This document shows positions 38,249-51,788 of a DNA stretch of 64,000 nucleotides, piece by piece. This DNA is from Thermoleophilum album. Lineage in GTDB: Bacteria > Actinomycetota > Thermoleophilia > Solirubrobacterales > Thermoleophilaceae. Within the stretch, counting starts at the first letter, position 1; the number at the start of each line of letters is the position of its first letter. Position numbers and translations under genes: made by a program. The notes beneath the pieces were generated by a model that was not told where the DNA came from, did not search any database, and saw only the letters and a program-made list of their open reading frames with translations. The stretch spans positions 558,001 to 622,000 of the forward strand of contig NZ_FNWJ01000001.1 of NCBI RefSeq assembly GCF_900108055.1, read 5' to 3'.

Positions 38249-39619
38249 ATGTCCGAACGCTTCGATTGCGTAATCGTGGGCTCGGGACCAGGTGGCTACG
38301 TCGCGGCGATCCGCGCGGCGCAGCTGGGTCTGCGCACGGCGATCGTCGAGAAGGGCAAGATCGGCGGCCGCTGCCTCAACGAGGCGTGCATCCCCGCGAA
38401 GACCGTCCTGCGCTCGGCGGAGGTACTCGACGAGGCGCGCAAGGCTGCCGACTACGGCGTGCGGATCGCTGGCGAGCCGGAGGTCGACTACACCCGCGTC
38501 GCCGCTCGCCGCGACGAGGTGATCGCGTCGTTGACCGGCGGCGTCTCGATGCTGTTGCGCAAGAACGGGGTCGAGGTGGTCGAGGGGACGGCGCGGCTCG
38601 ACGCGGCCGCGAACGTAGTGGTTGGCGAGCGCACGTTGGAAACCGACCGCGTGGTGCTGGCCTGCGGATCGCGACCCAAGGCCGTTGCCGGCGCGCAGTT
38701 CGGCGGTCGCATCGCCGACACCGCCGCCACCTGGCTCAGCGGCGAACTTCCGCGTTCGCTGTGCGTGGTCGGAGCCGGCGCGTCGGGCTGCGAGATCGCG
38801 TCCGCGTTTCGTCGGTTCGGCGTCGAGGTGACGTTGATCGAGGCGCTCGAGCGGATTTTGCCGGCCGAGGACGAGGACAGTTCGCGGCTGGTTGCGCGCG
38901 AGTTCAAGCGCATCGGCATCGACTTGCGTACCGGTGCCCAGATCGAAGCGATCGAGGACCGTGGCGACCGCGCCGTGGTCGTGCTCGCAGGCGAAGAACT
39001 CTCCTTCGAGCTCGTTTGCATTGCGGCCGGGAGAGCTCCCGACGTCGAAGGTCTGGGGCTCGACGCGGCCGGTGTGGAGCTCGATGAGCGCGGCCTGGTG
39101 CGGGTAGATGAACGGCTTCGCACCTCCCGCGAGGGCGTCTGGGCGATCGGCGACATGGTGCGCGGCCCAGCGCTCGCGCACAAGGCCTCGGAGGAGGGAA
39201 TAGTCGCCGTTGAGGATGCGGCTGGCCGGGATCCCGAGCCGCTGGACCTTGCGTTCGTGCCGTCGGTGACGTTCTGCCATCCCCAGGTCGCGAGCTTTGG
39301 CATGACCGAGGCCGAGGCGCGCGCGGCAGGACACGACGTGGTCGTCGGCAAGGTTCCGATCGGCGCGGTCGGGGCACCGACCGTTTACGGCGACCGTGCG
39401 GGTCTCGTCAAAATCGTCGGTGACCGCCGCTATGGCGAGCTCCTTGGCGCGCACGTGGTTTCGGCGAAGGCGGCCGAGTTGCTCGAGGAACTCGTGGTCG
39501 CCCGCGAACTCGAAGGCGGCTACCCAGAGCTGGCGAGGATCGTGCACCCGCATCCGGTGTTCGCCGAGGCGGTGGCGGAGGCCGCCCGCGCCGCCGACGG
39601 TTGGCTGATTCACGGCTAA
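38249..39619 (+). CDS. lpd: Dihydrolipoamide dehydrogenase (E3)
   Basis: A 456-residue flavoprotein that reoxidises lipoyl groups. The FAD loop VIVGSGPGGYVAAIRAAQLG, the redox disulfide C-x4-C (RCLNEACIP, about residues 42-47), a second Rossmann loop VVGAGASGCEIASAF and the C-terminal HPHPVFAEA with the His-Glu pair are present. The Thr usually before the first redox Cys is Arg here. It begins a plus-strand run leading into pdhABC. Confidence 0.95.
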   Translation: MSERFDCVIVGSGPGGYVAAIRAAQLGLRTAIVEKGKIGGRCLNEACIPAKTVLRSAEVLDEARKAADYGVRIAGEPEVDYTRVAARRDEVIASLTGGVSMLLRKNGVEVVEGTARLDAAANVVVGERTLETDRVVLACGSRPKAVAGAQFGGRIADTAATWLSGELPRSLCVVGAGASGCEIASAFRRFGVEVTLIEALERILPAEDEDSSRLVAREFKRIGIDLRTGAQIEAIEDRGDRAVVVLAGEELSFELVCIAAGRAPDVEGLGLDAAGVELDERGLVRVDERLRTSREGVWAIGDMVRGPALAHKASEEGIVAVEDAAGRDPEPLDLAFVPSVTFCHPQVASFGMTEAEARAAGHDVVVGKVPIGAVGAPTVYGDRAGLVKIVGDRRYGELLGAHVVSAKAAELLEELVVARELEGGYPELARIVHPHPVFAEAVAEAARAADGWLIHG

Positions 39620-40206
39620 CAGTCGACCCGCTGCTGGACCCGCAGCGGCCCACGTTCTTCTTCGACTTCGCCTGCCCGTACGCCTATTTGGCGGCTGAGC
39701 GGATCGCCGCGAATCCCGAGTTCGCTGCTGTCTGGCGGCTCGCCGCGCTCGATCAGGTGCTCGCCGCAGCCGGTCGAACCAGTTGGCTCGTCGCCGACGC
39801 AGCCGCAAGGGTTCGGCACGTCAACGAGATCGAGCGGCGCGCACGCGAGCTCCAGCTGCTGCCCCTGCACTGGCCGCCGCTGCCGCTCGACTCGCGGCGG
39901 GCGCTGCTGGCCGCCGCTTACGCGCAGGCGACCGGGCGACTCGTGGCCTTCTCGCTCGCGGCTTTTCGCCATGCCTACGCCGCGGGCCGCGACCTAGCGA
40001 ACGACGACGCTCTGGTGATCGCCGCAGCGGCCTGCGAGCTTCACCCGCGCGCCCTGCTCAAGGGGATCGAATTGGCGAGCACGCGAGAACTGCTGGACGC
40101 TTCGACCCAAGCGGCGCTGCGCGCCGGCGTTCGGCAACTGCCGGCAGTCGTCTGGCGGGGACACGTCTTCGAAGGAGACGACCGGATCGCGGAACTTTGT
40201 CGGTAG
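39601..40206 (+). CDS. DsbA-fold protein (HCCA-isomerase-like)
   Basis: A 201-residue protein of thioredoxin/DsbA fold with a helical insert. It opens TFFFDFACPYAYLAAERIA, similar to the F-D-F-x-S-P-Y-[AS]-Y-L start of 2-hydroxychromene-2-carboxylate isomerases, with Cys at the usual Ser position, and ends GVRQLPAVVWRGHVFEGDDRI, with the cis-Pro of the fold. The TTG start overlaps lpd by 19 bases. Its place between E3 and E1 genes hints at a redox or CoA-thioester role, but this is speculation. Confidence 0.75.
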   Translation: MADSRLTVDPLLDPQRPTFFFDFACPYAYLAAERIAANPEFAAVWRLAALDQVLAAAGRTSWLVADAAARVRHVNEIERRARELQLLPLHWPPLPLDSRRALLAAAYAQATGRLVAFSLAAFRHAYAAGRDLANDDALVIAAAACELHPRALLKGIELASTRELLDASTQAALRAGVRQLPAVVWRGHVFEGDDRIAELCR

Positions 40207-40229
40207 GCAGCGCGCGGCGAGGGCTGTCT

Positions 40230-41621
40230 ATGGTCGCAACCGCTGCCGCCGAAACAAAGGGTGTGCAGGACCCTCACGCGCGAGGTTCGTCGCCATCCGG
40301 GGCGAACGGGCAGCCGATCGATACAGTCGAACCCAGGGTGGAGAGCGCAGGGCGCAGCGTCGGGATACTCCGGCCGGAGGACGCGGGGCTCCGCCCCGCA
40401 CGGCACCCACTGCCGCCGCTCGAGGATTGCCTGCGCCTGTACGAGAAGATGGTGCTGATCCGCCGCTTCGAGGAACGCGCCGGCGAGATGTATGCGCGGG
40501 CGCGGATCGGTGGCTTCCTGCATTTGTGCATCGGCGAAGAGGCGACCGTCGTTGGCACCTGCGACGCGATGCGCGACAGCGACTACCTGCTCTCGACCTA
40601 CCGCGAACACGGTCAAGCGCTGGCGCGCGGCACCTCTCCACGCTCGGTAATGGCCGAGCTATTTGGCAAGGAAGCCGGCTGCTCAAAGGGTCGTGGCGGC
40701 TCGATGCACCTCTACGACGCCGCCCGGCGGTTTCTCGGCGGCTACGGGATCGTCGGCGCGAACCTGCCGATCGGTGCTGGCGTAGCGCTCGCCTGCGAGC
40801 TTTCGGGCAGTGACGACGCGGTCGTAACGATGTTCGGCGACGGCGCTACCAACCAGGGAACCTTCGGCGAAACCATGAACCTTGCAGCGCTCTGGCGGCT
40901 GCCGGTGGTGTTCGTCGTGGTCAACAACCAGTTCGGCATGGGCACCCGCATCGACCGCCATTCGGCGGTGCTCGACCTGTCGCGCAAGGCCGAAGGTTTC
41001 GGTGTCCCGGGACGTCGCTGCGACGGCATGGATGTGCTCGACGTTCGCCACCACATCCGCGAGGCACTGCGTCTGGCACGCGAAGAGCGGCGCCCCCAGC
41101 TGGTCGAAGCCGTCACCTACCGCTTCAGGGGCCACTCCGTGGCCGACCCCGAGGTCTACCGCACCCCCGAGGAGGTCGCCGAGTGGAAGCGTCGCGACCC
41201 GCTCGAGACCTTCCCCAAGCGATTGGTAGAGGAGGGAGGCGTGGCGCAGGCGACCCTCGAGGCCATCGATCAGCGGGCACGGGAGGTCGTGGAGGACGCG
41301 GTGGCGTTTGCCGAGCAGACTCCCTTCCCGCCTCTCGAATCGCTCTACGACCACGTGTACGTGTACAGCGGCGACGTGCCGGGGTGGTGGACGGTCGACG
41401 AGCGCAGCCCCGACGTCTATCCGGGCGAACGGGCACGCGAGGCCGGCGCTTTGGCGCGCCGGCTGGCCGAGCAGGGAGCGCAGCACGAAGAGACCGGCCC
41501 CCGCGTCGGTCGTACCCGGCGTGATTTGCCGGACGAGCTCGCCCCCGGTCCGCCGAACCTTGCTCCACCGGCATCTGCGGACACTGGTGACGCAAGCGCC
41601 GGAGGCAGCGATGGCCACTGA
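40230..41621 (+). CDS. pdhA: Pyruvate (or branched-chain 2-oxoacid) dehydrogenase E1 alpha
   Basis: A 463-residue subunit with the ThDP-binding motif FGDGATNQGTFGETMNLAAL. YEKMVLIRRFEERAGEMY, HLCIGEEATVVG, STYREHGQALARG, KEAGCSKGRGGSMHLYD and the phosphorylation-loop-like YRFRGHSVADPEVYRTPEE are typical. Disordered extensions flank the fold: about 70 residues before and 60 after, longer than in most relatives. Its stop overlaps the pdhB start by 11 bases. Confidence 0.93.
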   Translation: MVATAAAETKGVQDPHARGSSPSGANGQPIDTVEPRVESAGRSVGILRPEDAGLRPARHPLPPLEDCLRLYEKMVLIRRFEERAGEMYARARIGGFLHLCIGEEATVVGTCDAMRDSDYLLSTYREHGQALARGTSPRSVMAELFGKEAGCSKGRGGSMHLYDAARRFLGGYGIVGANLPIGAGVALACELSGSDDAVVTMFGDGATNQGTFGETMNLAALWRLPVVFVVVNNQFGMGTRIDRHSAVLDLSRKAEGFGVPGRRCDGMDVLDVRHHIREALRLAREERRPQLVEAVTYRFRGHSVADPEVYRTPEEVAEWKRRDPLETFPKRLVEEGGVAQATLEAIDQRAREVVEDAVAFAEQTPFPPLESLYDHVYVYSGDVPGWWTVDERSPDVYPGERAREAGALARRLAEQGAQHEETGPRVGRTRRDLPDELAPGPPNLAPPASADTGDASAGGSDGH

Positions 41622-42663
41622 GACGCGCCTCTCGCCAGCGCAGGCGACCCGCACGATCACCTACCGCGAGGCCCTACGTGAGGCACTGCGCGAAGAGCTG
41701 CGCGCGGACGAACGGGTGTTCCTGATGGGCGAGGACATCGGCGTCTTCGGGGGCGCTTTCAAGGTCACCGAGGGGCTGCTCGAAGAGTTCGGCGAGCGAC
41801 GCGTGCGCGACACCCCGATCTCCGAGAACACGATCGTCGGCATGGGCGTCGGTGCCGCGATGGCCGGGATGCGGCCGGTGGTCGAGATCATGCAGCTGAG
41901 CTTCGCCCTGCTGGCGCTCGATCAGATCTTCAACTCGGCGGCGCACGTGCGTTACATGTTCGGGGGCCAGCCGACGGTGCCGCTGGTGATTCGCATGCCA
42001 CAGGGGGCTGGCCATCAGCTCGGCCCCACGCACTCGCACTGCCTGGAGGCCTTCTTCCTGCACGTTCCGGGGCTGCTCGTAGCCGTACCGTCGACACCGG
42101 CCGACGCCAAGGGACTGCTCAAGTCCGCGATCCGCGACGACAACCCGGTCGTCTTTATCGAGCACAAGTCGCTGTACGGGATGCGCGGCGAAGTGCCCGC
42201 CGATCTCGGCCCCTTGCGCTTCGGCGAGGCAGCGATCAGGCGGCACGGGCGCGACGTGACGATCGTGGGAATCTCGCGCATGGCGGTCGTTGCCGAACGC
42301 GCTGCCGAGCAACTAGCTCGCGACCACGGCGTCGAGGCCGAGGTGATCGACCCGCGCACGTTGCGCCCGCTCGATCTCGACACGATCCTCGAGTCCGTTC
42401 GCCGTACCAACCGCGTGGTGATCGTCGAGGAGGGCTGGCCGCACGGCGGCGTCGGTGCCAACCTCGCAGCGCTGATTCAAGAGCAGGCGTTCGACTGGCT
42501 GGACGCGCCGATCCAGCGAATCGCCCGCGCCGACGTGCCGATGCCGTACTCGAAGCCGCTCGAACAGGCGGCGCTACCGCACGAGGAGAACGTGATCGAG
42601 GCGGCGCTCGCCTCGCTCGGCCGAACGAGCGAGGAAGCGAGCGACGGTCACGCACGCGTCTAA
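41611..42663 (+). CDS. pdhB: Pyruvate (or branched-chain 2-oxoacid) dehydrogenase E1 beta
   Basis: A 350-residue subunit pairing with PdhA. It begins TYREALREALREELRADERVF and has LMGEDIGVFGGAFKVT, DTPISENTIVGMGVGAAM, RMPQGAGHQLGPTHSHCLEA and VEEGWPHGGVGANL. ATG 41611 has GGAGG six bases upstream, inside pdhA. The usual length and motifs argue for an active E1 heterotetramer. Confidence 0.95.
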   Translation: MATETRLSPAQATRTITYREALREALREELRADERVFLMGEDIGVFGGAFKVTEGLLEEFGERRVRDTPISENTIVGMGVGAAMAGMRPVVEIMQLSFALLALDQIFNSAAHVRYMFGGQPTVPLVIRMPQGAGHQLGPTHSHCLEAFFLHVPGLLVAVPSTPADAKGLLKSAIRDDNPVVFIEHKSLYGMRGEVPADLGPLRFGEAAIRRHGRDVTIVGISRMAVVAERAAEQLARDHGVEAEVIDPRTLRPLDLDTILESVRRTNRVVIVEEGWPHGGVGANLAALIQEQAFDWLDAPIQRIARADVPMPYSKPLEQAALPHEENVIEAALASLGRTSEEASDGHARV

Positions 42664-42678: not shown

Positions 42679-44139
42679 ATGGCCGCAGAGATCGTGATGC
42701 CCCGCCTTACCGACTCGATGGAGGAGGGCACGCTCGTGCGCTGGCTCGTTCGTCCTGGCGACCGAGTCGAGCGCGGTCAACCGATCGCCGAGATCGAGAC
42801 CGACAAGGCGACGATGACCTACGACAGCGACACCGAGGGTGTGGTGATCGAGCTCGTCGCCGAGGAGGGCCAGACGCTACCGATCGGGGCGGTGATCGCG
42901 CGCATCGGTGACCCGGCCGAGGCGCCGCAGCGTGCCGAGGCGCCCGAGCGTGCGGAAGCTCCGCCCGCGGCCGCCGCCCCTCAAGCCGCCGAGGAACCGC
43001 CGCCGGTGCAAGCCGAAGAGCCTGCGGCGAGCATGCCGGCAGGGGCGATCGAGCACCCCGCCGAGACCCAGCCAGCGCCGGGGACGTCGTCAGGCGTCGA
43101 AGAGACGGCACAAGCGACGGCGAAGACCACGAGCGCGCCGGAGGCGGGCGCTGCCGACGGTCGCTTGCGTGCATCACCGCTCGCCCGGCGACTGGCTCGG
43201 GAGCTCGGCATCGACCTGCGGACCGTGCGTGGTAGCGGACCGGGCGGGAGGATCGTGCGCGCCGACGTCGAGGCGCTGGCCGCTAGCACGCGCGCGCTGA
43301 GCGGCGAACGCCGCGCAGAAGAGGGGCCGCAACCAGGCGCGATCGCGCCTCCGCCACCTCCGCCACCTCCGCCACCTCCGCCACCTCCACCGGCGGCGCC
43401 AGAGGCGCCACCACGCGCACCGGAGACGCGCGCGGTAGAGACCGCGCGTGGTCGCGTGGAGGTAGAGGAGCTCGACCGCACGCAACAGACGATCGCCCGG
43501 CGGATGGCCGAATCAAAGGCAACCGTCCCCGACTTCGCGCTCGAACGGACCGTCGACATGGAAGGCTGCCGCGAGCTGCGCGAGCGCCTGCGCGCGCGGG
43601 TCGAGCCGCTCCCCACCTACAACGACCTGGTGGTGAAGGCGTGCGCGCTCGCGCTACGCGAGCATCGGCGTCTGAACGGCTCCTACCGCGACGGGCGTTT
43701 TGAGCTGCACGAGCGGATCAACGTGGGGATCGCCGTGGCCCGTCCGAACGCTCTGATCGTGCCCACCATCTTTGACGCCGATCGCAAGTCGCTGCTCGAG
43801 ATCGCGCGCGAAGCGCGCCGTCTGGTCGAACGTGCACGGAGTGGCGAGATCACGCCGCCGGAGCTCTCCGGCGGCACCTTCACTGTGTCGAACCTCGGCA
43901 TGTTCGGAATCGACCGCTTCACAGCGATCATCAACCCACCGCAGGCCGCGATCCTCACCGTCGGCGCGGTCGCACCGCGACCCGCCGTCGACGAACACGG
44001 CTCACTCTGCGTGCGTCACCTCGCAACGCTCACGCTGGTTTGCGACCATCGCATCGTCTACGGCGCCGACGGAGCGCAGTTCCTTGCGCGTGTCGCGGAG
44101 CTTCTCGAGGAACCGCTGGCGATGCTCGTCGAAGGGTGA
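42679..44139 (+). CDS. pdhC: Dihydrolipoamide acyltransferase (E2)
   Basis: A 486-residue core subunit. One lipoyl domain (1-77) carries the lipoylation Lys in IETDKATMTY (Lys43); an Ala/Glu/Pro linker follows; a peripheral-subunit-binding domain (about 156-195) reads ASPLARRLARELGIDLRTV; then 15 prolines in a row; then the catalytic domain (about 255-486). The catalytic motif, normally HxxxDG, reads H457-R-I-V-Y-G, so the usual Asp is Tyr. It is the last of the E3-E1-E2 genes and a substrate of the LipB-LipA fusion protein encoded 4 kb downstream. Confidence 0.94.
   Translation: MAAEIVMPRLTDSMEEGTLVRWLVRPGDRVERGQPIAEIETDKATMTYDSDTEGVVIELVAEEGQTLPIGAVIARIGDPAEAPQRAEAPERAEAPPAAAAPQAAEEPPPVQAEEPAASMPAGAIEHPAETQPAPGTSSGVEETAQATAKTTSAPEAGAADGRLRASPLARRLARELGIDLRTVRGSGPGGRIVRADVEALAASTRALSGERRAEEGPQPGAIAPPPPPPPPPPPPPPPAAPEAPPRAPETRAVETARGRVEVEELDRTQQTIARRMAESKATVPDFALERTVDMEGCRELRERLRARVEPLPTYNDLVVKACALALREHRRLNGSYRDGRFELHERINVGIAVARPNALIVPTIFDADRKSLLEIAREARRLVERARSGEITPPELSGGTFTVSNLGMFGIDRFTAIINPPQAAILTVGAVAPRPAVDEHGSLCVRHLATLTLVCDHRIVYGADGAQFLARVAELLEEPLAMLVEG
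43348..43392 (+). repeat. 9-bp tandem repeat coding for 15 prolines
   Basis: CCTCCGCCA is repeated four times with a fifth near-copy (CCTCCACCG), inside pdhC, between the subunit-binding and catalytic domains. Such runs stall ribosomes unless EF-P acts, and are prone to length change. It serves as a stiff linker. Confidence 0.9.
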
Positions 44140-48352: not shown

Positions 48353-50098
48353 ATGGCGCACGAGCTGTGGGTCTCTTGGCTCGGTCTCGTCGAGTACCGC
48401 GAGGCGCTTGAGCTGCAACGGCGGGTCCACGCGGCGCGCGTCGCCGATCGCATCCCTGACGTTTTGTTGCTGCTGGAGCACCCGCCGGTTTACACGTGCG
48501 GGGTTCGTACTCGTCCCGAAGACCTGCCGTTGCCGCGCGAGGAGTACGAGCGAAGGGGCATCGCCGTCCACGCGGTCGACCGCGGTGGCCGTGTCACTTA
48601 CCACGGACCCGGTCAGCTGATCGGCTACCCGATCGTGCGTGTCGGACGCGTGCGCGAGTTCGTGTCGGCGATCGAGCGGGCGCTGGTGGCGGTTTTGAAC
48701 GCCGAGGGTGTGACCGACGCCCACGTTCCGGCAAGCGACACCGGGATCTGGACAAGCCACGGCAAGATCGCCTCGATCGGTATCCGCGTGCGCGACGGTG
48801 TGTCGCTGCACGGCTTCGCCCTAAACGTCGACTGTGACCTCGAACCCTTCCGCTGGATCCATCCCTGCGGGATGAGCGAGGCAGCGATGTCGTCGCTTGC
48901 CTTGGAGGGCCATCCCGGCCGAATGCGCTGCGTGCGCCGACGCTGCGGCTACGAGCTGGCGCGCGCTCTCGGTGCGCGGCAACGGCTGGTTTCGCGCGAC
49001 CGCCTGACAGCGCTCTTGCAGCGCACCCGTGCGCGCCCGCTGGCGAGCCGGTCGCGGGCGCGCCCGGGCGGTTGGGAGACGCTCGAACTGCCTCAGGCAC
49101 GCCCCTTCCGCGACCGCAAGCCGCGCTGGTTCAAGCGACCGCGACCGGGGGGCGCGCGCTACCGCGCACTACATGCACGCATCGAAGCGGAGGGCTTGCA
49201 CACCGTTTGCCAGGAGGCCGCTTGCCCGAACATCGGTGAGTGCTGGGAGCACGGCACAGCGACCTTCATGATCCTCGGCGATGTCTGCACCCGCCGCTGC
49301 GGCTTCTGCAACGTCAAGAGCGGTAAACCGACGCACAACGATCCGCTTGAGCCGCTGAAGGTCGCCCGCCAAGTGCAGCGCATGGGTTTGCGCCACGCGG
49401 TTGTCACGAGCGTCGACCGCGACGACCTACCCGACTACGGTGCCGGCGCCTTCGCGGCGGTGATTCGAGCGATCCGCACGCTCAACCCCGGCTGCACCGT
49501 GGAGGTCCTGACACCGGATTTCCGTGGTCAAGAGATGCCGCTGGCGCGCGTGATCGCTGAGCGACCGGACGTCTTCAACCACAACGTCGAGACGGTCCCG
49601 CGCCTCTATCCGCTTGCCCGGCGCGGCTCCGACTTCGCGCGTTCCTGCCGCGTGCTGCTCAACGCCAAGCTGATGGGCGGCGAGCGAGTGAAGACCAAGT
49701 CGGGCCTGATGGTCGGCCTGGGCGAGACCCGCGAGGAGGTTCTCGAGGTGCTTTGGTTGTTGCGTGAGCACGCCGTCGAGATCGTGACTATCGGCCAGTA
49801 CCTGCGGCCTTCACGCGACCACCTGCCGGTCGTCCGCTACTGGCACCCCGAGGAGTTCCGCGAGCTCGAGCGCGAGGCGCTGGCGATGGGCTTCTCTTCG
49901 GTGGCCGCTGGTCCGCTCGTGCGCTCCAGCTATCACGCTGAGCAGACCTTGTTGGCCGCTCGCGCGGCCGGCGACGCGGGGGGCCCGACGAGCGCCTCCG
50001 CTTTCTGCTCGTCAGGACCGGCGCCCACGACTGCCGCCAAGACTCGCCCGTCTCGCCCATCAACGCGCAGCACGGTGGGCGTTACGGCAATCGCGTAG
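48353..50098 (+). CDS. lipBA: Fused octanoyltransferase (LipB) and lipoyl synthase (LipA)
   Basis: One continuous 581-residue frame. Residues 1-225 are LipB: YHGPGQLIGYPI, catalytic Lys138 in SHGKIASIG and nucleophile Cys172 in IHPCGMSE. A basic linker (about 226-262) follows. Residues about 263-535 are LipA: auxiliary-cluster cysteines 286, 291, 297 (C-x4-C-x5-C), radical-SAM cysteines 312, 316, 319 (C-x3-C-x2-C) and the terminal RSSY (524-527). The last 40 residues are low-complexity and overlap a gene on the other strand. The protein would move octanoyl from ACP to E2 and then insert both sulfurs. Nothing between the domains resembles a strong internal start. Confidence 0.95.
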   Translation: MAHELWVSWLGLVEYREALELQRRVHAARVADRIPDVLLLLEHPPVYTCGVRTRPEDLPLPREEYERRGIAVHAVDRGGRVTYHGPGQLIGYPIVRVGRVREFVSAIERALVAVLNAEGVTDAHVPASDTGIWTSHGKIASIGIRVRDGVSLHGFALNVDCDLEPFRWIHPCGMSEAAMSSLALEGHPGRMRCVRRRCGYELARALGARQRLVSRDRLTALLQRTRARPLASRSRARPGGWETLELPQARPFRDRKPRWFKRPRPGGARYRALHARIEAEGLHTVCQEAACPNIGECWEHGTATFMILGDVCTRRCGFCNVKSGKPTHNDPLEPLKVARQVQRMGLRHAVVTSVDRDDLPDYGAGAFAAVIRAIRTLNPGCTVEVLTPDFRGQEMPLARVIAERPDVFNHNVETVPRLYPLARRGSDFARSCRVLLNAKLMGGERVKTKSGLMVGLGETREEVLEVLWLLREHAVEIVTIGQYLRPSRDHLPVVRYWHPEEFRELEREALAMGFSSVAAGPLVRSSYHAEQTLLAARAAGDAGGPTSASAFCSSGPAPTTAAKTRPSRPSTRSTVGVTAIA

Positions 50099-50379
50099 CG
50101 ACGAAATAGCTCAGGGCGCTCACGCACGTCGACCTTCACCCAGGGCGTCGCGCTTCGACCCAGCAGCTCCTCCCACTCGCGACACGGCAAGCAGAGCGGC
50201 GAGCTGAAGAGCACGATCGCCTCGCCGCCCTGGTTAGCGGTGCGTGGCAGCAATCGGGGGTCGATTTGCCGTGGCCAGCGGCGACGGCGCGCGGCCTGCG
50301 CGACACCCCACCAAGCGGCGGCCGCAAGCACGATCGCCAGCAGGGCGAGAACGAGCAGCGTGCGGTCGGCGAAAGACAA
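49933..50379 (-). CDS. Membrane-anchored thioredoxin-like protein
   Basis: A 148-residue protein with an N-terminal helix (LLVLALLAIVLAAAAWWG) and a thioredoxin fold with active site C-L-P-C in LFSSPLCLPCREWEELL and the cis-Pro in AIAVTPTVLRVDG. It probably works outside the membrane in disulfide exchange. It is next to a DUF4395 membrane protein with two Cys pairs, a pairing that suggests electron transfer between them. Its last 166 bases overlap the end of lipBA on the opposite strand. Confidence 0.8.
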   Translation of the reverse strand: MSFADRTLLVLALLAIVLAAAAWWGVAQAARRRRWPRQIDPRLLPRTANQGGEAIVLFSSPLCLPCREWEELLGRSATPWVKVDVRERPELFRRYAIAVTPTVLRVDGRDGRVLAAVVGAGPDEQKAEALVGPPASPAARAANKVCSA

Positions 50380-50396: not shown

Positions 50397-50894
50397 TCAG
50401 GCCGTAGTGCCGCCGGCCGGCGGCGCGGACGATGGGTCACGCAGGGGGATGCCGCGACGCCGCGCAAACCACGTGTAGATCTCGCAGCCGACGCAGAAGC
50501 CGGTACTGGCGGCGAGCAGCGCAAGCGCCGCGACGAGCAGGGCGAGCGCCCAGCCGAGCGTCTCGACGCCCGCCAGGAGGGCGAGCGTGGCGGCAGCGGT
50601 GAAGACGCACCCCACGATGTTCGCGAAGCGCGGCGGCCGTGCGTCCTCCAGTGGACCCTCCCCGAGGCGTGGCTGCAGCACCTCGAAGTAGAAGACGCAG
50701 GGAAGGCAGTAGCGGCGCCCGAAGATGAGCCCCACCGCAAGTTGCAGCGCGACGATCGCTACGAGTACTGGGGCCTGGAGGAGGAACGCGAGCAAACAGA
50801 CGAGGCCGACGAAGGCCTGATTCACGCGCGGTGCGCGTGCGTCGATCACGTCCGTGTCATCGTATGGGTGGGCAGTGCGGGTGGTCTGAGCCAT
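50397..50894 (-). CDS. DUF4395-type membrane protein with cysteine pairs
   Basis: A 165-residue protein with about four helices and the motifs VNQAFVGLVCLLAFLL, IFGRRYCLPCVFYFEVL, PRFANIVGCVFTAAATLALL and ASTGFCVGCEIYTWFA. Two C-x2-C pairs near membrane borders suit thiol-disulfide relay. ATG 50894 is chosen over the longer antisense-like frame. It lies 17 bases upstream of the thioredoxin-like gene, same strand, so both are probably one transcript. Confidence 0.8.
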   Translation of the reverse strand: MAQTTRTAHPYDDTDVIDARAPRVNQAFVGLVCLLAFLLQAPVLVAIVALQLAVGLIFGRRYCLPCVFYFEVLQPRLGEGPLEDARPPRFANIVGCVFTAAATLALLAGVETLGWALALLVAALALLAASTGFCVGCEIYTWFARRRGIPLRDPSSAPPAGGTTA

Positions 50895-50921
50895 CAGCAC
50901 GAATAGTGGCAAAACCGAACG

Positions 50922-51788
50922 GTGTTTCCGATAAAGGACAATCTGCCGACGCGCCGCTTCCCGGTGCTGACGGTGCTGCTGATCGTCGCCTGCACGATCA
51001 TCTATTTCGCCTTCGAGCAAGGCGGCATCGGGCTTGGACCGGTTGGCAACGAGCGCGTCATCGAATGGGGCGCGATCCCATACGAGATCACGCACCCGGG
51101 CAAGGAGTGCGTGGAGCCGCCGCCCGGGACGCGGATCGCGGCGCTTGCCGAGCGCGCCGGTACGCCGCTCGTTTGCGAGGGCCAGGAACTGAGGTTGACA
51201 ACCGCCTTCGGCGGCGAGGCGGTGGTGAAGCTGCCGGATCGCTTCCCCGCCGAGCTCACCCGCGGCGATCCACCGACGTGGCTGACGCTGTTCAGCTCGA
51301 TGTTCCTGCACGGAGGCCTCTTGCATCTGGCCGGGAACATGCTGTTCCTGTGGATCTTTGGGAACAACGTCGAGGACTCGATGGGCAGACTGCGATTCAT
51401 CGCCTTCTACCTGTTGGGCGGCCTCGCAGCGCTCGTCGCACAAGTGGCGTTCGATCCCTCCGCTGCGGTGCCGACGGTGGGAGCCTCTGGGGCGATCGCC
51501 GCGGTTCTTGGCGGCTACGCGTTGCTCTACCCGCGCGCCCGGGTCATTACGGTCGTGTTCGTGCTGTTCTTTTTCACGATCGTCGAGCTGCCCGCTCTGC
51601 TCGTTCTAGGGATGTGGTTCCTGGTGCAGCTGTTCTACGGCGCCGCAGAGCTCGGTCAGCCGCTAGGCGGTTCGGGCGGCGTCGCCTACTTTGCGCATAT
51701 CGGCGGCTTCCTGTTCGGTCTGCTTGCGATCAAGGCGTTTGCAAACCGACCGAACCGTGAGTACGACGCCAGCTACGCCTACTGGTAG
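50922..51788 (+). CDS. Rhomboid-family intramembrane serine protease
   Basis: A 288-residue membrane protein. Rhomboid marks are MFLHGGLLHLAGNMLFLWIF (with the His and Asn of loop 1/TM2), the nucleophile Ser in VGASGAIAAVLGGY and the catalytic His in YFAHIGGFLFG. A soluble insert of about 60 residues with two Cys sits after the first helix. Starts at GTG. It is divergent from the DUF4395 gene. Substrates are unknown. Confidence 0.92.
   Translation: MFPIKDNLPTRRFPVLTVLLIVACTIIYFAFEQGGIGLGPVGNERVIEWGAIPYEITHPGKECVEPPPGTRIAALAERAGTPLVCEGQELRLTTAFGGEAVVKLPDRFPAELTRGDPPTWLTLFSSMFLHGGLLHLAGNMLFLWIFGNNVEDSMGRLRFIAFYLLGGLAALVAQVAFDPSAAVPTVGASGAIAAVLGGYALLYPRARVITVVFVLFFFTIVELPALLVLGMWFLVQLFYGAAELGQPLGGSGGVAYFAHIGGFLFGLLAIKAFANRPNREYDASYAYW

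Follow-up and report, generated by a model that had tools for sequence, protein, structure and literature searches.

The genome of Thermoleophilum album encodes a lipB-lipA fusion gene (48353-50098, + strand; coordinates are those of the window, the whole stretch of 64,000 nucleotides that was analysed), the product of which is very probably a genuine, putatively bifunctional octanoyltransferase/lipoyl synthase that would have arisen by a small junction rearrangement joining two adjacent genes. The frame begins with ATG and continues uninterrupted through 581 codons in translation, without an in-frame stop, and profiles of both enzymes match it above their cut-offs, which bears out the original prediction that one frame joins a full LipB to a full LipA.

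Domains and conserved residues of the fusion protein

The LipB octanoyltransferase domain (residues 1-210, 48353-48982, + strand; also delimited as approximately residues 4-210) is recognized by the NCBIfam profiles NF010925 (residues 4-185, 186.6 bits versus a cut-off of 155) and TIGR00214 (134.1 bits versus 83.6) and by PF21948; the LipA lipoyl synthase domain (residues 253-538, 49109-49966, + strand; also delimited as approximately residues 253-533) is recognized by the NCBIfam profile TIGR00510 (residues 253-533, 373.7 bits versus 310.25) and by PF04055. Pfam concurs in assigning LplA-B_cat and Radical_SAM to the fusion protein. The nearest solved structures are lipoyltransferases (2qht and 1w66) for the LipB half and lipoyl synthases (5exi and 4u0o) for the LipA half. 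The residues singled out in the original prediction are all present: the predicted catalytic pair K138 and C172 of LipB, the auxiliary cluster (C286/C291/C297, CX4CX5C), the radical-SAM cluster (C312/C316/C319, CX3CX2C) and the RSSY motif (R524-S-S-Y527) of LipA. All are invariant in an alignment of 15 sequences, consisting of the fusion and 14 loci of the order, the latter translated past the one or two stop codons of lipB to pair both domains. The dN/dS ratio relative to the congener (G001) is 0.18 for the LipB half and 0.11 for the LipA half, and purifying selection is acting on both, to judge from the sequences.

Between the two domains lies a junction (residues 211-252, 48983-49108, + strand) that comprises the C-terminal strand and helix of LipB, to approximately residue 223, followed by a linker; the LipA N-terminal motif SRSRARPGG (from 49046, + strand) is located within it. 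The linker is basic, as anticipated, and measures approximately 41 residues between the ends of the domain models rather than the approximately 37 first estimated. An AlphaFold2 model derived from the 15-sequence alignment (mean pLDDT 74.6, pTM 0.52) contains two folded domains, with low confidence at the linker (residues 226-254) and tail (residues 529-581); therefore, no fixed arrangement of the LipB domain relative to the LipA domain is claimed from the model.

The C-terminal tail (residues 539-581, 49967-50095, + strand) belongs to this low-confidence region and is antisense to a convergent thioredoxin-like gene (49933-50379, - strand), with which the fusion gene shares 166 nt at its 3' end (49933-50098). 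A matching overlap of lipA with a thioredoxin-like gene, approximately 121 nt in length (L086 1555-1675), is found in the congener. The second part of another ORF (50397-51443, - strand) encodes a small cysteine-containing membrane-type protein that has no NCBIfam match and is kept in the congener (L086 718-1182, 76%), again adjoining the thioredoxin-like gene.

The junction and the origin of the fused frame

In close relatives, LipB ends with RLVSxxRL plus a short tail, the TGA of lipB overlaps the GTG or ATG of lipA, and LipA begins with (V/M)STRSRANPGG. The T. album frame matches LipB of these relatives through RLVSRDRL (to 49006) and matches LipA from SRSRARPGG (49046). In the congener, lipB (241 codons) overlaps at a GTGA with a lipA that is read in another frame, and the junction is 173 nt long versus 39 nt in T. 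album. This net shortening by 134 nt would fit a small deletion that joined the two genes; we infer a single deletion as the cause of the net change.

Single-base insertions or deletions simulated after 49006 bring the next stop to approximately codons 294-305, inside LipA; thus, separate lipB and lipA genes are not regained by any single-base error after codon 218. The main rival is an error slightly farther upstream, where a spurious base in the sequence or assembly, within approximately 11 nt upstream of codon 218, might hide a lipB TGA (49005), with lipA starting at TTG (49016). Such an artefact would account for the absence of any fused relative in the order, removal of a single base at any of 74 simulated positions ahead of 49005 terminates the frame at codon 217, and the CTGA at 49004 is reminiscent of the GTGA at which the two genes of relatives overlap, but an artefact is nevertheless unlikely: in-frame conservation of LipB extends to the RL of residues 217-218, the helix of residues 215-223 is modelled at high confidence, the resulting lipA would be without ATG or GTG and without any Shine-Dalgarno-like sequence, and the 134-nt difference from the congener is too large for an error of one base. 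Counted against a genuine fusion, along with a possible spurious base within approximately 11 nt before 49005, are the longer LipB branch of T. album (0.23 versus 0.10 for the congener in the tree) and the restriction of the fused state to a single assembly, the congener being unfused and the locus being absent from the genus's third genome.

It is more improbable still that the fused ORF works as two proteins, whether by internal initiation or by cleavage of the linker, as might be supposed from the independent start of lipoyl synthase in the ancestors and from a linker that is basic and of low confidence in the model. There is no in-frame stop, and translation of lipB must therefore yield the full-length protein. 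TTG at 49016 is the sole in-frame ATG, GTG or TTG within the junction (48983-49108), and no Shine-Dalgarno-like sequence that could serve as a ribosome-binding site was found before it. As for inheritance or acquisition of an already fused gene from the class in which fusion is common (see below), the domain order there is identical and the linker length similar (39-95 residues versus 41 in T. album), but this origin has almost no probability: in the LipA and LipB trees, the respective halves group with the unfused congener (full support, 100/100 and 100/99), among unfused genes of the order, and LipA of T. album is 82% identical to that of the congener, versus 40-51% for the spanning matches of the other class. 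Transfer from that class was accordingly rejected on the basis of both trees. Each tree requires two changes of the fused state, and 0% of 200 bootstrap trees have only one; thus, within the sampled set, fusion arose twice, independently. The preferred reading, a genuine fusion by local rearrangement, is one in which T. album shares its architecture with the class-wide fusions and not their ancestry, and in which its fusion looks recent compared with the old, class-wide fusion on the other side.

Distribution of LipB-LipA fusions in Actinomycetota

A search for such fusions across Thermoleophilia, suggested by the original prediction, was negative apart from T. album, its relatives having separate genes. 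Fusion is absent from the 80 public loci closest in sequence, 77 of which contain both genes as separate ORFs, mostly adjacent; a sample of 101 genomes from the order includes only one, that of T. album, in which a stop-free span covers both domains. The fusion is limited to T. album among these genomes. Approximately 20 loci of the order (L005-L026) have lipB and lipA in one frame, split by one or two stop codons only, so that a stop-codon change would fuse the two genes in these relatives, and the step to fusion is therefore short.

The rarity of fusion implied by the original prediction is contradicted farther afield in Actinomycetota, the phylum that the fusion searches covered. In a sample of 139 genomes of the phylum, reading of the DNA identified 11 single-ORF LipB-LipA fusions besides that of T. 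album, and all 11 belong to one class, which includes Ilumatobacter coccineum YM16-304 (G211; genome published in 2013, PMC3910706) and Acidimicrobium ferrooxidans (G179; genome published in 2009, PMC3035218) and which, from the names of these two fusion carriers, is very probably Acidimicrobiia. Of 119 genomes of this class, 84 have one match spanning both domains, which is stop-free in 59 of the 84, and the nine others whose DNA was read each consist of a single ORF that stops after LipA; fusion is the usual arrangement there, found in most of the sampled genomes. The gap between the LipB and LipA matches in this class is 39-95 residues, the longest being that of L131 (G116). Two genomes with equal open-frame lengths for the two matches (G135 and G214) were rejected as fusions because their DNA contains separate ORFs, as were two loci with long ORFs around LipA (L132 and L134) that have no LipB match.

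The fusions of the Ilumatobacter and Acidimicrobium class resemble that of T. album in being one ORF with LipB ahead of LipA, both complete by profile; they differ in being old and class-wide, whereas that of T. album is apparently recent, confined to one species, of separate origin and different in junction sequence. NCBIfam also has an analogous family of bifunctional lipoate-protein ligase/lipoyl synthase proteins (NF053790, LplA_LipA_fuse), in which a lipoyl-attaching enzyme likewise precedes LipA, but its partner is the ligase LplA instead of LipB, and the T. album protein falls outside the family (355.7 bits versus a cut-off of 800, LipA half only). The architecture is thus not new, being class-wide in a group with genomes published in 2009 and 2013, and the T. 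album gene is an independently evolved example of an existing type of fusion. In E. coli, lipB (b0630) and lipA (b0628) belong to the same families and act in the same reaction order, but they are two separate genes with ybeF between them. Chains of LipB plus LipA probably carry the label "Multifunctional fusion protein" in UniProt. The literature searched, in which a GTDB-wide survey of lipoate assembly was included, yielded no description of a LipB-LipA fusion; because coverage of the literature was partial, this silence is weak evidence.

Genomic context and proposed function

Upstream of the fusion gene on the same strand are genes of pyruvate dehydrogenase, identified by Pfam: Lpd (38249-39619), E1 alpha (39783-41621), E1 beta (41308-42663) and E2 (42679-44139). 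The E2 protein, which has one lipoyl domain with the motif ETDKA, an E3-binding domain and a catalytic domain (PF00364, PF02817, PF00198), is a likely substrate of the fusion protein. Its gene ends 4.2 kb upstream of the fusion gene, in keeping with the distance of 4 kb given in the original prediction, in which the fusion gene was also described as next to the pyruvate dehydrogenase genes. Such a gene order is found in many relatives, but four ORFs intervene in T. album: a lysine-decarboxylase-family (LOG-type) gene, an ORF without a Pfam match, a sulfatase-family gene and an ORF of 207 codons. These four ORFs are unrelated, whereas in many relatives the pyruvate dehydrogenase genes adjoin lipB-lipA closely upstream. 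In many loci of the order (e.g. L036, L042, L063 and L069), lipB is preceded by homologs of E1 and E2; thus, the link between pyruvate dehydrogenase and lipB-lipA genes is probably ancestral.

The fusion may be pictured as starting from an ancestor with adjacent lipB and lipA genes that overlapped at their stop and start codons, downstream of pyruvate dehydrogenase genes as in many relatives. A small rearrangement of the junction, most simply a deletion, would have eliminated the stop of lipB together with the start of lipA, bringing both into one frame. LipB is known to transfer the octanoyl group, after which LipA inserts sulfur into the bound octanoyl chain (PMC9307952). By family membership and conserved residues, the N-terminal half of the fusion protein would transfer octanoate from acyl carrier protein to the lysine of a lipoyl domain by means of Cys172 and Lys138, and the C-terminal half would then insert two sulfurs by radical-SAM chemistry. 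A flexible linker of approximately 30-40 residues may give both active sites access to one lipoyl domain, and the octanoylated domain might hypothetically be handed from one to the other without release; such direct hand-over of octanoylated E2 is a plausible and reasonable proposal. One tentative, and on balance doubtful, explanation for fusion having occurred at least twice in Actinomycetota is that the octanoylated domain passes directly from LipB to LipA, making assembly processive. Two independent fusions of these consecutive enzymes point to a benefit for LipB and LipA from tethering on a shared protein substrate, or at least to tolerance of it. T. album and its unfused congener illustrate the conversion of two genes that overlap at their stop and start codons into one, and they constitute a natural before-and-after pair for asking whether lipoyl assembly is processive.

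The T. album genome (2.2 Mb, 95.6% complete) was searched for other lipoate genes. This check, suggested in the original prediction, turned up neither lipB nor lipA as a separate gene, and the fusion protein has the only LipA above the cut-off. There is one further LplA-B_cat protein (G000:C1:1184807-1185286; L002 1408-2280), which is distantly similar to LipL amidotransferases (60.5 bits versus a cut-off of 400) and coexists with LipB/LipA lipoate synthesis. Additional lipoyl/biotinyl domains are encoded in the genome, among them a pair within a single frame at C1:520796-521383.
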